Positions 34,427 through 40,174 of a stretch of 40,174 nt of DNA are shown one piece after another. Position 1 is the first letter of the stretch. Every line of letters begins with the position of its first letter. Source of the stretch: Erysipelotrichia bacterium (GTDB lineage Bacteria; Bacillota_I; Bacilli_A; Erysipelotrichales; Erysipelotrichaceae); NCBI GenBank assembly GCA_018333955.1, contig JAGXSD010000017.1:1-40174 (forward strand). The letters run 5' to 3'. Under the pieces are notes generated by a model. The model had not been told where the DNA came from. It ran no database searches and saw only the letters and a list, made by a program, of their open reading frames with translations. The translations under genes and the position numbers were made by a program.

Positions 34427-35626
34427 ATGGGAAACAAAATCAAGATCGGTATCTCGACTTTTGGAGAACTTACAGTCATTAGTGGATGTGAGGTATTTCG
34501 TATTGATGGATATCTAACAAAAAACGTTAGATATTTACTTGAAATCCTTATTTACTATCGAATGACACCACTTTCAAAAAATCAAATCATAGATTTGTTA
34601 TGGTCAGGAAGTCATAATCCTGAAAGTGCATTAAAATTTACTGTTCATCGATTAAGGCAAGCCCTCAAAGATATTCCAATCTTTGAGGAGACTCCATTAG
34701 TCATTACCACAAAACATGGATATGACTTAAACCCAGAATTTGATTATGATATTGACTTTGAAGAAGTTGATAATTTGTGGAAGATGATTCAGAATCCAAA
34801 TCGTGACGAGAAGGATAAGAAAAAACTACTATTAAGTTTAATTACAAAAATAAACAAACCTTTCTTAGCTTCAAGTAGTGCTTTATTATGGACCATTCCT
34901 ATCAGAGAGTATTATTCAAACATTTTTAATCAATCATTAATGATGCTCCTAGAAATGTCTGAGAAAGCACGTAAATATCAGGACCTCATTCAATATGCAC
35001 ATCGTGGCATTACATTTAATCGCTTAAATGAGGATTTCCACTATTACTACATTTTAGGACTAATATATGATCGTCAAATTAGACAAGCTATTGAAGCCTA
35101 TGAGAAAACTAGAGAATTGTTCCTTACCGAATTAAAGAGTGATTTGTCTGAAAAAACTAAAGATCTCTTTAAGTTATTACTTTCTAAAGATGAAATAAAC
35201 TTTGTAAAGATGGGTGATCTAATCATGAACCTTAATGAAAATTCTCCTCACGATGGCGCATTCTATTGTGAGTATGAAGTGTTCAAGCGGATGTATCAGA
35301 ACCAAATGAGAACACAGTCTCGAAATCAAGAACTTGCCTGCTTAGTTATCTTAGAACTTCGTAATACTCAACAAACAGAGTTTGATATGAGTAAAGCTAT
35401 GGAAAAGCTTAAAAAGGCCATCGATCATGGATTAAGACGCTCGGATGTGTATTCTAGAATCAACTCCTTGCAGTTTGTGTTACTACTCCCATGTAAGAGC
35501 AAAGATAATGGATATACCATTGTAGAGCGTATTCAAAGGATTTTTTATAAGAATTTAAGTCGGGATCAAGTCAAATTATATAGTTATATGAATGTTGTTG
35601 AAAACATGGAATCACAATTACAATAA
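34427..35626 (+). CDS. winged-helix transcriptional regulator with BTAD/TPR domain (SARP-like)
   Basis: The 399-residue protein has an OmpR/PhoB-type winged helix in residues about 8-105 (FGELTVISG, then LLEILIYYRMTPLSKNQIID, SALKFTVHRLRQALK, and ITTKHGYDLNP as wing). A bacterial transcriptional activation domain of TPR-like helices follows to about 270 (YAHRGITFNRLNEDFHYYYILGLIYDRQ, IEAYEKTREL). The C-terminal 130 residues are not recognised. Such regulators activate nearby genes, often cell-surface or metabolite clusters. It is the first gene of the surface module, and an inverted repeat follows it. The target is inferred from position only. Confidence 0.82.
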   Translation: MGNKIKIGISTFGELTVISGCEVFRIDGYLTKNVRYLLEILIYYRMTPLSKNQIIDLLWSGSHNPESALKFTVHRLRQALKDIPIFEETPLVITTKHGYDLNPEFDYDIDFEEVDNLWKMIQNPNRDEKDKKKLLLSLITKINKPFLASSSALLWTIPIREYYSNIFNQSLMMLLEMSEKARKYQDLIQYAHRGITFNRLNEDFHYYYILGLIYDRQIRQAIEAYEKTRELFLTELKSDLSEKTKDLFKLLLSKDEINFVKMGDLIMNLNENSPHDGAFYCEYEVFKRMYQNQMRTQSRNQELACLVILELRNTQQTEFDMSKAMEKLKKAIDHGLRRSDVYSRINSLQFVLLLPCKSKDNGYTIVERIQRIFYKNLSRDQVKLYSYMNVVENMESQLQ

Positions 35627-35734: not shown

Positions 35735-35816
35735 ATACGAATCTGGGCAAACTAATCGAAAGGTTAGGGCGCAAAGTCAGACGTCTAACGTGGAAACACT
35801 ATGATGGGTCAACTGC
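35735..35816 (+). promoter_or_regulatory. class I cyclic-di-GMP riboswitch aptamer (GEMM-I)
   Basis: The core matches GEMM-I: GGGCAAAC (35745-35752), a helix CTAA/TTAG closed by the tetraloop C-GAAA-G (35757-35762), GCGCAAAGTC (35769-35778), GTCTAA (35783-35788), a small GTG-GAAA-CAC hairpin (35790-35799) and TATGAT (35800-35805). The 3' strand of the outer helix is not clear to me and may be divergent. It lies in the leader of the InlB-repeat protein. A terminator 5' arm (35807-35820) overlaps its 3' end, so ligand binding should block termination, an ON switch by inference. Confidence 0.82.
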
Positions 35817-35845
35817 ATAAGTCAAATTATGTGGTTGACCTTTTT
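35807..35845 (+). terminator. riboswitch expression-platform terminator
   Basis: A 14-bp stem pairs 35807-35820 with 35827-35840 (GGTCAAC with GTTGACC, then wobble and AT pairs), loop GTCAAA, followed by TTTTT (35841-35845). It ends 20 bp before the start codon of the surface protein, so read-through must be regulated. Confidence 0.88.
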
Positions 35846-35864
35846 CCTTAAAGGAGGGAAGCAT

Positions 35865-38525
35865 ATGAAAAGAATATCCCACAAACTACTATCCTTGGTT
35901 ATGTCGTTCATGCTTGTTATCACGGCATCATTTATGCCGGGGTTATTTAATCTAAGCATTGCGAACGCAGCAGGGAACTATGAGGCAGATTCAGGAGTTT
36001 ATGAACTTCTAGGAACCTCAAACAACGACCACACAAATGCCTATTACTTGTGGCAAAAGGGAAATACAATATTTGTCGCGGTAACAGTCAATGTTAACCA
36101 AAACCAATTGAATGATGTTCAAATGAATGGAGTCAGTGCAAACACGATTGACTACCTAGGAAAGAGCGTCCTACTCAAAGTTTACCAAACTGGTGACAAT
36201 AGTGGAGTTCCTATCTTAGATGTTGCACCTCCACAAAAGACAGCAAACAATCCAAATAGCTGGGTAGTTGCTTCATTCACAATGACTAATATTCCAAGCA
36301 GTTTCCTTCTTTCTGTGCTTACTCCAGGTGGTCATGCGATCACTAACGTAAGTTATACCGTTAAAGGCGCATTGGATGTTTGGAATGAATATCCACCAAC
36401 TTCTCCTGAACTTGATGGGGATCAATCCTTTGGTAGTAACAACCTTGGTGGTATCGCACCTGGTACTTACACCTTCAATCCTTCACCTACACTAGGTTTT
36501 GAGTATGAAAGTGTACGATTAGAGATTGATGGAGTCGTCGTTGGTACAGCAGTTGCTGGAGTACCATTCTCTTATCCATTTGCGGATGGGGTATTAAGTG
36601 TTAGTGCCTTAGGGGTCATTACTCTTCAACTCAATCAAGCTTCTTCAAAAGAATATGACTTCTTCTATGTTTATGCTTTATCTGATTATCTATTAACTAT
36701 TGTCTATGAATTTGAAGATGGCTCAACAGCTGCTTCAGATTACACGGCAACATTAAACTATCAAGATCCATATAGTGTGGTTTCTCCTACGATTACTGGA
36801 TACACTCCTGATATCACTACGGTTTCAGGAACCATGCCGGCATCAAATCGTACAGTTACCGTCACTTATACAGCGATTGACTATTCATTCACCTTCGTTC
36901 CAAACTGGGGTAGTGAAGTCAATGTAATCCGCTCATTTAATGTCGGTGGCAGTGTAACTCCTCCAACCTTTACACGTGATGGGTATACTTTCACAGGTTG
37001 GACAACAGATCAAGCTGGAATGAATTTATATGTTGCTGGATTTACAAACTTAAGTGCAGAAGATAAAACGGTCTATGCACAATGGGCAGCCATTGATTAT
37101 ACATTCACCTTCGTTCCAAACTGGGGCAGTGAAACTAATGTAGATCGTACCTTCAACATTGGTGGTAGCGTCACTCCTCCAACCTTCACTCGTACAGGAT
37201 TTACCTTTACTGGTTGGTCATTAGATGCAGAGGGAACTCAACCTTACACTCAATTTACAAATCTACCTTCAGGAAACAAAACTGTTTATGCACAGTGGTC
37301 ACAAAATGACTATACATTCACTTTTGATCCAAACTGGGGCAGTGAAATTAATGTCGTTCAAACTTTCAACTTTGGTGGCAGTGTCGCAGGTACAACATTT
37401 GTTCGTACTGGTTACACATTCGCGGGTTGGACACTTGATGAAGAAGGTCTAGTGGCATACACTGGTGGATTAACTAATCTACCAGCTGAAAACATTTATG
37501 TCTATGCACAATGGACCGCTATTGATTACACATTCACATTTGATCCTAACTTCGGTGATGGAGCGAATGTCGTACAAACCTTCAACGTTGGTGGCAGTGT
37601 CGCAGGTACAAGTTTCACTCGTACTGGTTACACATTCACTGGTTGGACACTTGATGAAGAAGGTCTAGTGGCTTACACTGGTGGCTTAACTAATCTGCCA
37701 GCTGAAAACATTTATGTCTATGCACAATGGACTGCGATTGATTACACATTCACATTTGATCCTAACTTCGGTGATGGAGCGAATGTCGTACAAACATTCA
37801 ACGTTGGTGGCAGTGTCGCAGGTACAAGTTTCACTCGTATAGGTTACATTTTCCAAGGATGGACAACAGATGAAGAAGGATTAGAACCTTATGTATTAGG
37901 TTTAACCAATCTTCCTGCTACAAACATCTATGTCTATGCACAATGGACTGCGATTGATTACACATTCACATTTGATCCTAACTGGGGTAGTGAAGTCAAT
38001 GTCGTTCAAACCTTCAATATTGGTGGAAGTGTCGCAGGAACTGTATTTGTTCGCGATGGATACACTTTTGATGGTTGGACACTTGATGAAGCCGGTTTAA
38101 TTGAATACACTGGTGGTTTAACCAATCTACCTGGTGAAAATATTTATGTTTATGCACAATGGGCAGAAGTATTAGGTGAAGAAGACGAAACATTCGTATT
38201 GAGATATATTACAAATATGGATGGATTATCATATGTTGATGTAGTCTTCAAAGCTGGTGATAGCATTACTCCTCCAGTTCCATCTGTAGAAGGATACAAC
38301 TTCTTAGGTTGGTTCACTGATGAAGAGTTTGAAGAATTATTCGCTGACTTTGGAAATATGCCAGCACGTGATGTTACAGTATTTGCGGATTGGGGAGAAG
38401 TATTAGGAGATGATGATGAAATTCCTCAAACTAGTGATTCAGGATTAAGATCATTAGCATTCTTCTTATTCATCCTTGGTTTATTATCAATTACTGTAGT
38501 TAAAAAAGAAGAAGAATTAGAATAA
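35865..38525 (+). CDS. surface protein with InlB B-type repeats and a sorting-signal-like end
   Basis: The 886-residue secreted protein has a signal peptide (residues 1-35, SIANA before the cut). An N-terminal domain of about 200 residues is unrecognised, and a MucBP-like segment follows (about 280-336, TVSGTMPASNRTVTVTYTA). Seven InlB B-repeats (Listeria-Bacteroides repeat, about 72 residues each) span about 338-845, with YTFTGWT and VYAQW marks. The C-terminus has IPQTSD at 853-858, then a hydrophobic segment and KK followed by acidic residues: like an NPQTx/LPxTG sortase motif but with Ser where Gly is usual. ATG 35865 has AGGAGG 7 nt upstream; an earlier in-frame ATG lies inside the terminator stem. 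It is likely an adhesin or biofilm protein controlled by c-di-GMP. Confidence 0.87.
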   Translation: MKRISHKLLSLVMSFMLVITASFMPGLFNLSIANAAGNYEADSGVYELLGTSNNDHTNAYYLWQKGNTIFVAVTVNVNQNQLNDVQMNGVSANTIDYLGKSVLLKVYQTGDNSGVPILDVAPPQKTANNPNSWVVASFTMTNIPSSFLLSVLTPGGHAITNVSYTVKGALDVWNEYPPTSPELDGDQSFGSNNLGGIAPGTYTFNPSPTLGFEYESVRLEIDGVVVGTAVAGVPFSYPFADGVLSVSALGVITLQLNQASSKEYDFFYVYALSDYLLTIVYEFEDGSTAASDYTATLNYQDPYSVVSPTITGYTPDITTVSGTMPASNRTVTVTYTAIDYSFTFVPNWGSEVNVIRSFNVGGSVTPPTFTRDGYTFTGWTTDQAGMNLYVAGFTNLSAEDKTVYAQWAAIDYTFTFVPNWGSETNVDRTFNIGGSVTPPTFTRTGFTFTGWSLDAEGTQPYTQFTNLPSGNKTVYAQWSQNDYTFTFDPNWGSEINVVQTFNFGGSVAGTTFVRTGYTFAGWTLDEEGLVAYTGGLTNLPAENIYVYAQWTAIDYTFTFDPNFGDGANVVQTFNVGGSVAGTSFTRTGYTFTGWTLDEEGLVAYTGGLTNLPAENIYVYAQWTAIDYTFTFDPNFGDGANVVQTFNVGGSVAGTSFTRIGYIFQGWTTDEEGLEPYVLGLTNLPATNIYVYAQWTAIDYTFTFDPNWGSEVNVVQTFNIGGSVAGTVFVRDGYTFDGWTLDEAGLIEYTGGLTNLPGENIYVYAQWAEVLGEEDETFVLRYITNMDGLSYVDVVFKAGDSITPPVPSVEGYNFLGWFTDEEFEELFADFGNMPARDVTVFADWGEVLGDDDEIPQTSDSGLRSLAFFLFILGLLSITVVKKEEELE
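36876..38168 (+). repeat. six tandem InlB-type repeats of about 216 bp
   Basis: The units start at 36876, 37092, 37305, 37521, 37737 and 37953; one is 213 bp and the others 216 bp. A seventh, diverged unit runs from about 38187 to 38396. Units 4 and 5 share their first 100 bp with a single difference, and the second halves of units 3 and 4 are almost identical. Confidence 0.9.
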
Positions 38526-38540
38526 TAAGACTCCTTAACT

Positions 38541-38570
38541 AAGCACGGGTTAATACCCGTGCTTTTTATT
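38541..38570 (+). terminator. intrinsic terminator after the surface protein
   Basis: AAGCACGGGT (38541-38550) pairs with ACCCGTGCTT (38555-38564), loop TAAT, then TTTATTTT. A strong GC stem 15 bp after the stop codon. Confidence 0.92.
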
Positions 38571-38704: not shown

Positions 38705-38785
38705 AATAGAATTATTCTCAGTATTAGGAAGCATATGATTATCGACATCAATCTGGACGCTTTTGTCGATATGAGCTAGTAGCGT
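38705..38785 (+). ncRNA. candidate structured RNA with H-type pseudoknot, unknown class
   Basis: TATCGACA (38740-38747) and TGTCGATA (38764-38771) form an 8-bp stem. Its 16-nt loop holds ACGCT (38757-38761), which is complementary to AGCGT (38781-38785) directly before a strong terminator. Stem plus loop-to-downstream pairing is the arrangement of an H-type pseudoknot. It matches no riboswitch I can name. It is either a riboswitch-like leader of the secreted-protein gene or a small RNA of about 110 nt. The 428 bp between 38526 and 38953 hold no gene besides these elements. Confidence 0.4.
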
Positions 38786-38815
38786 AACCGGCCAAACATG
38801 TTTTGGCCGGTTTTT
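38786..38815 (+). terminator. strong terminator before the secreted-protein gene
   Basis: AACCGGCCAAA (38786-38796) pairs with TTTGGCCGGTT (38802-38812), followed by TTT. It is an 11-bp GC-rich stem about 140 bp upstream of the next start codon, so transcripts from the 38670 promoter either end here or must be antiterminated. Confidence 0.9.
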
Positions 38816-38953
38816 AATTTAACTTTAAAAGTCACCGAGATTGACATGGAAGTTAAAAATAGCTAAAGGAGGGGAAAAATATATTATCAATTACTGTGTA
38901 TAAGGGTGAAAGACAGAGTTTAAAACCAAATAATCGTTAAAAAGGAGAGAACG

Positions 38954-39778
38954 ATGTTAAAGAAATTTTCTAAAGTATTAATAACACTGATGATGATTCT
39001 AGGTGTTACCACAATGATTTCTGCAGAAGAACCTATTCCTGCACCATATGTTTCAATTGATAAAGCATTTGGAACTGGATTAATTTCTGAAACTCTAATT
39101 GGAACTGAGATTGATGTTACTGGTTTCGTGTCTTGGGTTAATGGGTATGTATTCCAAACTTCTCCACAAACTAGAACGATTCAAGGACTACGCTCATTAG
39201 AATTGTTAGTAAATGGTACACTAGTTACGGAACTACCATTTGGTGGAACTAACGGTTTGCAACCAATTGAACTAGGATCTCGAGGAACTCATGGAGCAGA
39301 ATTTGCACTGCCATGGACTATTCCAATGGATGCTGAAGTTGGCGACAAATTTGTTCTTAGAGTAATCGCAAAATTCCACACATCCCAAGGAAACTTTACT
39401 TCAGATGATTTAGAAGAAGTTGAAATTATTGCAGACTTAACATTCTATGTTGTTCCAATGGCTGCACCAAATGTTGCGGAATTAATTCTTAAGTTTAACG
39501 GTGTTGATCAAAGATATGGTAAAGGACGCGCAGGTGGAAATTTTGTACAAGAAGTTGCACATTTCATGGGTAAAGTTAGAAATGTAGAGACTCCACTTCC
39601 AACAGATTTTGCTGGTGAAAATAAAGAATTCTATAATGAACTTGAAGATCGATATGAAGGAAGAGCTGAATACCGTTTAGCTGTATTAAACTTTTTGAAT
39701 GCACATCCACTTCTTGGGTCGTTAATTATGCCATGTGATGAATTTTTCAATTCATATGGTGAAGTTGTTTGTCCATAA
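38954..39778 (+). CDS. secreted protein of unknown family
   Basis: The 274-residue product has a signal peptide (LITLMMILGVTTMISA, cut after about residue 24). The mature part is beta-rich to about residue 175, with LRSLELLVNG and FALPWTIP, then helical with acidic and basic residues and two Cys near the C-terminus (PCDEFF and VVCP) that could form a disulfide. There is no lipobox, sorting motif or second membrane segment, so it is released or binds the surface non-covalently. The start has AAAGGAG 8 nt upstream. It follows a long leader with a terminator and may be co-regulated with the repeat protein upstream. I do not recognise the family. Confidence 0.8.
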   Translation: MLKKFSKVLITLMMILGVTTMISAEEPIPAPYVSIDKAFGTGLISETLIGTEIDVTGFVSWVNGYVFQTSPQTRTIQGLRSLELLVNGTLVTELPFGGTNGLQPIELGSRGTHGAEFALPWTIPMDAEVGDKFVLRVIAKFHTSQGNFTSDDLEEVEIIADLTFYVVPMAAPNVAELILKFNGVDQRYGKGRAGGNFVQEVAHFMGKVRNVETPLPTDFAGENKEFYNELEDRYEGRAEYRLAVLNFLNAHPLLGSLIMPCDEFFNSYGEVVCP

Positions 39779-39882: not shown

Positions 39883-39892
39883 CAATTCAAAG

Positions 39893-40174
39893 GATAGAGT
39901 CCGTATAATTGTGTAAAAGTAAAAAGGCCATAGAAGTCTGCTATTATGTTAGTATCGACACCACATAAGGACAAATTCTATGACCCAAATCAATCTTAAT
40001 TTAAATATGGAACAGATTCAAGACATCATTTCAAATAGTGGTGCAAATTCACTTGCGAAACAAATGTTAACGACGATTTTCAACCAACTGATGGAAAAAG
40101 AACGCGATGATTATATCCAAGTCGATACCTATTCTCGAGAAGAACATCGCAACTCATCAAGAAATGGGTATTAT
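39893..40174 (+). mobile_element. IS256-family insertion sequence, left end (partial)
   Basis: The sequence from GATAGAGTCCGTATAATTGT onward matches what I recall of the IS256 left terminus, including a following GTAAAAAGGCC stretch. The transposase start follows 87 bp inside, as in IS256. The rest is outside the window, so the right end and target duplication cannot be checked. Confidence 0.88.
39980..40174 (+). CDS. IS256-family transposase, N-terminal fragment (cut by window edge)
   Basis: This is the open frame from the ATG at 39980 to the window end, 65 codons. MTQINLNLNMEQIQDII, ILTTxFNQLME-like LTTIFNQLMEKERDDYIQ and the SSRNGYY ending resemble the N-terminus of IS256 (MutA) transposase. 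The DDE catalytic residues are beyond the edge. The start has an AAGGAC ribosome site (39967-39972), 7 nt upstream. Confidence 0.9.
   Translation, partial: MTQINLNLNMEQIQDIISNSGANSLAKQMLTTIFNQLMEKERDDYIQVDTYSREEHRNSSRNGYY

Follow-up and report, generated by a model that had tools for sequence, protein, structure and literature searches.

The window, a stretch of 40,174 nucleotides that forms contig C17 of an Erysipelotrichia bacterium whose genus falls within or close to Erysipelotrichaceae, carries on its forward strand a gene for an 886-aa exported surface protein (35865–38525), recognized by its InlB/Flg_new repeats (PF09479), its MucBP-like domain and its orthologues. Seven PF09479 (Flg_new/InlB B) repeats were matched with an E value of 4.4e-65, in agreement with the initial annotation, which had described an InlB-repeat surface protein at this place. 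The intrinsic terminator of the leader is followed by a ribosome site, AAAGGAGGGA, and then by the ATG of the gene at 35865; another terminator comes after the gene (38541–38564, forward strand). The protein ends in IPQTSD and a hydrophobic stretch (IPETS in the sister species G004), an ending that resembles a sortase signal, and the genome has two sortase genes; we infer that the protein, whose acidic tail is atypical, is anchored to the cell wall and that its role is presumably adhesion. A structure model of its N-terminus has a mean pLDDT of 46.

Upstream of the leader, at 34427–35626, lies a gene for a BTAD/Trans_reg_C-type regulator, which is also found beside the adhesin gene in three congeneric species (G002, G003 and G004; G003 bears the deposited name 'Erysipelothrix sp. 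isolate CROMO_A_142'). No clear promoter was seen for the leader, where promoter-like matches occur at close to the number found in shuffled sequences.

The class I aptamer in the leader

When compared with the Rfam covariance models, the window gives three matches above the curated cut-offs: SRP RNA (8651), c-di-GMP-I and c-di-GMP-II. The c-di-GMP-I (GEMM-I) aptamer occupies 35736–35820 of the forward strand, in the leader of the adhesin gene, and matches RF01051 over the full length of the model (1–87) with 63.6 bits, against a curated cut-off of 35 bits, and an E value of 2.7e-10. This bears out the GEMM-I identity proposed in the initial annotation, and the motifs that it had listed are present in the order claimed, namely GGGCAAAC, a helix capped by CGAAAG, GCGCAAAGTC, GTCTAA and a GTG-GAAA-CAC hairpin. 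Projected onto the window, the Rfam structure places a 2-bp helix at 35747–35748/35771–35772, the GAAA-capped helix at 35752–35767, the long helix P3 at 35775–35785/35803–35814, with a single C-A mismatch (35778/35811), and a small hairpin at 35790–35799.

One earlier suggestion did not hold, which is that an unusual outer 3' strand marks the element as a divergent member. The letters in question, GCA where the model has GCC (positions 82–84), are a common variant in the order: position 84 is A in 17 of its 31 class I aptamers, and 12 of these 17, the window's among them, place U opposite it, at position 9; in the 13 that have C at position 84, position 9 is always A. The short P1 helix is likewise shared with most of the 31. 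The window element is a sound, ordinary representative of an already known type of riboswitch.

RF01051 matches were found in 17 of the 60 related genomes searched, and orthologues of the adhesin gene with the same leader occur in the three same-genus species (G003:C38, G002:C5 and G004:C82). When the four leaders are aligned, pairing within the aptamer is retained in 98.7% of cells, compared with 24–49% in slid controls, and two pairs have changed on both sides. The letters of the ligand pocket (GGCAAAC, GCGCAAAG and UCUAA) and the tetraloop helix are retained in the relatives, as judged from the four-species alignment and from pair counts. These observations bear on the reading that the aptamer has decayed and now serves merely as a constitutive terminator or attenuator. 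The short P1 and the mismatch in P3 would fit such decay, but the aptamer has been kept with compensatory changes in four species despite a 26% difference in the N-terminus of the protein, it has been kept in G004 with a protein divergence that is larger still (54% identity), and the invariant pocket motifs are still there, all of which makes decay extremely improbable.

A hairpin of the form GATGGG...CCCATC, which stands just before the aptamer in G003, was also considered; it is poorly kept in G002 and we claim no role for it.

Terminator overlap and the direction of switching

An intrinsic terminator extends over 35806–35846 of the forward strand, with its 5' arm at 35807–35820, its 3' arm at 35827–35840 and a U-run thereafter, and is kept in the sister species. 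Its hairpin (35806–35841) has 15 pairs, or 14 without the outermost one, which reconciles it with the 14-bp stem counted previously, and a loop of six nucleotides, followed by the T-run; its energy is about −20 kcal/mol, and one terminator of this kind was observed where shuffled sequences give a mean of 0.2. The segment that comprises aptamer and terminator folds with a z score of −4.4 relative to dinucleotide shuffles, none of 200 of which reached as low an energy. As first pointed out in the initial annotation, the 5' arm of the terminator runs into the 3' part of the aptamer. Specifically, 35807–35814 are common to this arm and to the 3' strand of P3 (35803–35814, forward strand). In the free minimum-energy fold the full terminator is present and the outer part of P3 is lost; in folds of transcripts with 3' ends up to 35830, the terminator is still absent.

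Across the four species, pairing in the terminator is intact in 100% of cells, with one U-A to U-G change. Because the terminator barely varies between species, covariation provides no test of it, and it is its conservation that lends support. The overlap of aptamer and terminator also precedes the orthologous InlB-repeat genes of the three sister species and recurs at two more aptamers in the genus (G002:C42 and G003:C13). In other genera of the order, class I terminators mostly begin at or past the end of the aptamer.

Since the 3' strand of P3 consists of bases that the 5' arm of the terminator needs, the bound aptamer and the terminator are, on paper, mutually exclusive, and a ligand-stabilized aptamer that excludes a terminator is the predicted arrangement of an ON switch. 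Without ligand, 35807–35820 would leave the aptamer and pair with 35827–35840, and RNA polymerase would halt at the U-run ahead of the adhesin gene. Binding of c-di-GMP would keep about 35803–35816 tied up in the long helix and the ligand pocket, such that the terminator could not form and the InlB-repeat surface protein would be made. The overlap lends support to the logic set out in the initial annotation, in which c-di-GMP turns the adhesin on, with ligand binding and the switch itself as its predicted parts. On the basis of the aptamer match, the terminator, their exclusion of each other, the conservation in four species and the gene order, we consider it highly probable that 35736–35846 is a c-di-GMP-I riboswitch that acts as an ON switch by c-di-GMP-dependent anti-termination.

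The short P1, the C-A mismatch in P3 and the predominance of OFF switches among the class I elements of Clostridioides difficile (PMC6200980) speak against this reading. An OFF switch would require an alternative anti-terminator in the ligand-free RNA and termination that is favoured by the ligand, and no element of the free fold is indeed as stable as the terminator. The terminator, however, takes its 5' arm from the aptamer itself, which sets the bound aptamer and the terminator against each other, and the folds contain no competing anti-terminator outside the aptamer. We regard OFF switching as very unlikely and retain the ON reading.

The closest precedent for such an arrangement is the Bc2 RNA before cap in Bacillus thuringiensis, a tested class I ON switch upstream of an adhesin gene (PMC4933901). 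Both systems combine a class I aptamer, an intrinsic terminator, ON action and a surface adhesin downstream. They differ in taxon and in the adhesin, which has InlB repeats here and is a collagen adhesion protein there, and switching has been put to experimental test for Bc2-cap whereas it is predicted for the window. In G002, the C42 aptamer mentioned above (L023 1501–2569) forms an ON-type class I leader before the gene of a Big_8 and Collagen_bind protein, and so comes near the Bc2-cap arrangement. We found no study of c-di-GMP riboswitches in this bacterial family in the open-access literature searched. The locus thus provides a clear example of a predicted class I ON switch that precedes an adhesin gene, in a family without such a study in that literature, and it leaves existing knowledge of the working principle of c-di-GMP switches unchanged.

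Choice of ligand

The window aptamer has a G at 35746 (forward strand), aligned with position 11 of the Rfam model, which we take to be the equivalent of G20 in residue numbering. Whether c-di-GMP or cGAMP is preferred depends on the base at G20 (G20A; PMC6274999). An A at this place would point to a GEMM-Ib switch, and G is found there in the window aptamer and in its three orthologues. On the enzyme side, the genome has 16 GGDEF and two EAL domains; 16 GGDEF domains are many for a genome of 1.8 Mb, and EAL domains number only two. At what is presumably the place, within the GGDEF motif, of the canonical Asp and of the Ser of Hypr enzymes, Asp stands in all 15 of the GGDEF domains read. In the cGAMP-making Hypr enzymes, Ser replaces the Asp of GGDEF domains (PMC6456294).

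Because of the G at the G20 place and the Asp kept in the 15 GGDEF domains read, c-di-GMP is the likely ligand and is favoured over cGAMP as far as sequence can tell. That 3',3'-cGAMP is the natural ligand of a GEMM-Ib switch at this site would be in keeping with the ability of GEMM-I relatives to bind cGAMP and with one aptamer of G004 that has A at the G20 place, but the same G and the same canonical Asp lead us to judge it highly unlikely. That G004 aptamer (C83; L031 1501–1581) is itself of class I, leans towards cGAMP by the known rule and precedes the gene of a CHASE4-PAS-GGDEF-HD protein; it may possibly provide feedback on cyclic dinucleotide turnover.

Two riboswitch classes along the locus

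A second riboswitch, which the initial annotation had overlooked, follows the adhesin gene. It is a c-di-GMP-II aptamer at 38718–38802 of the forward strand that matches RF01786 with 55.5 bits, just above the cut-off of 53.5 bits, and an E value of 9.2e-10. Its AACCGGCC core doubles as the 5' arm of a terminator at about 38786–38816 (forward strand), and the element is predicted to be of the ON type, as are class II elements in two other genera, where the same overlap is seen. The gene that it would control (38954–39778, forward strand) encodes a 274-aa exported protein with a signal-like N-terminus, for which Pfam and NCBIfam searches gave no match. Weak relatives of the protein were found only in one other genus, no riboswitch lies beside them in the fetched DNA, and its structure model has a mean pLDDT of 48.

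The window ends within the left end of an IS256-type element (39893–40174, forward strand; PF00872 match at 39980–40174), which is cut by the end of the contig and preceded by the left copy of a 10-bp repeat, CAATTCAAAG, at 39883–39892. Contig C60 starts with the other end of an element of this type (L001 1–211), the right copy of the repeat being at C60 202–211, so that CAATTCAAAG flanks both ends of the element as a target-site duplication would. Beyond the element, C60 carries two tandem class I aptamers (L001 361–574), the gene of a CAP-domain exported protein and gltX. In G003, a single contig has the adhesin gene and then directly the tandem aptamers, the CAP gene and gltX. Because of the flanking CAATTCAAAG copies and the gene order in G003, C17 and C60 very likely adjoin; given that several copies of the IS256-type element lie at contig ends, the join is strongly suggested rather than proved.

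The class II riboswitch is missing at the corresponding site of G003, and it looks as though either this species gained the class II unit with the IS element or G003 lost them. We rejected a swap of classes at one site, by which class II here would stand for the tandem class I aptamers of G003, because the class II unit sits between the adhesin gene and the unit of tandem class I aptamers and CAP gene, which persists on C60.

With the join assumed, the locus very likely combines three genes for exported proteins with four c-di-GMP aptamers, which fall into two unrelated classes. The presence of these aptamers within one locus is a mild surprise, although close precedents exist in B. thuringiensis Bc2-cap and in the C. 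difficile pair zmpI/CD630_28310. In the latter, Cdi-1-12/zmpI (class I) neighbours Cdi-2-3/CD630_28310 (class II), with opposite action (PMC6200980). Both that pair and the present locus place a class I and a class II switch on neighbouring genes for exported proteins, one of them an adhesin; in C. difficile, the class I switch of the protease gene is OFF and the class II switch of the adhesin gene is ON, whereas here both classes are predicted to be ON and class I would drive the adhesin. Tandem class I switches are also already known (PMC4759541; PMC12452182), among them the triple-tandem Bc3-5 RNA of B. thuringiensis, with several class I aptamers before one gene (PMC4759541). The aptamer pair on C60 resembles Bc3-5 in that successive class I aptamers precede a single gene; unlike Bc3-5, the class I switch of the window is single, the tandem copies being further along the locus.

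The locus offers a compact natural setting in which class I and class II can be compared under one cellular level of c-di-GMP. More tentatively, and with the odds rather against it, all four aptamers could be ON switches of differing affinity that bring about a stepwise surface programme as c-di-GMP rises, with class II gained by one species. For the second of the tandem aptamers, pairing is possible between the 3' end (GUUACC) and bases beside the ribosome site, which suggests translational control by exposing or masking that site.
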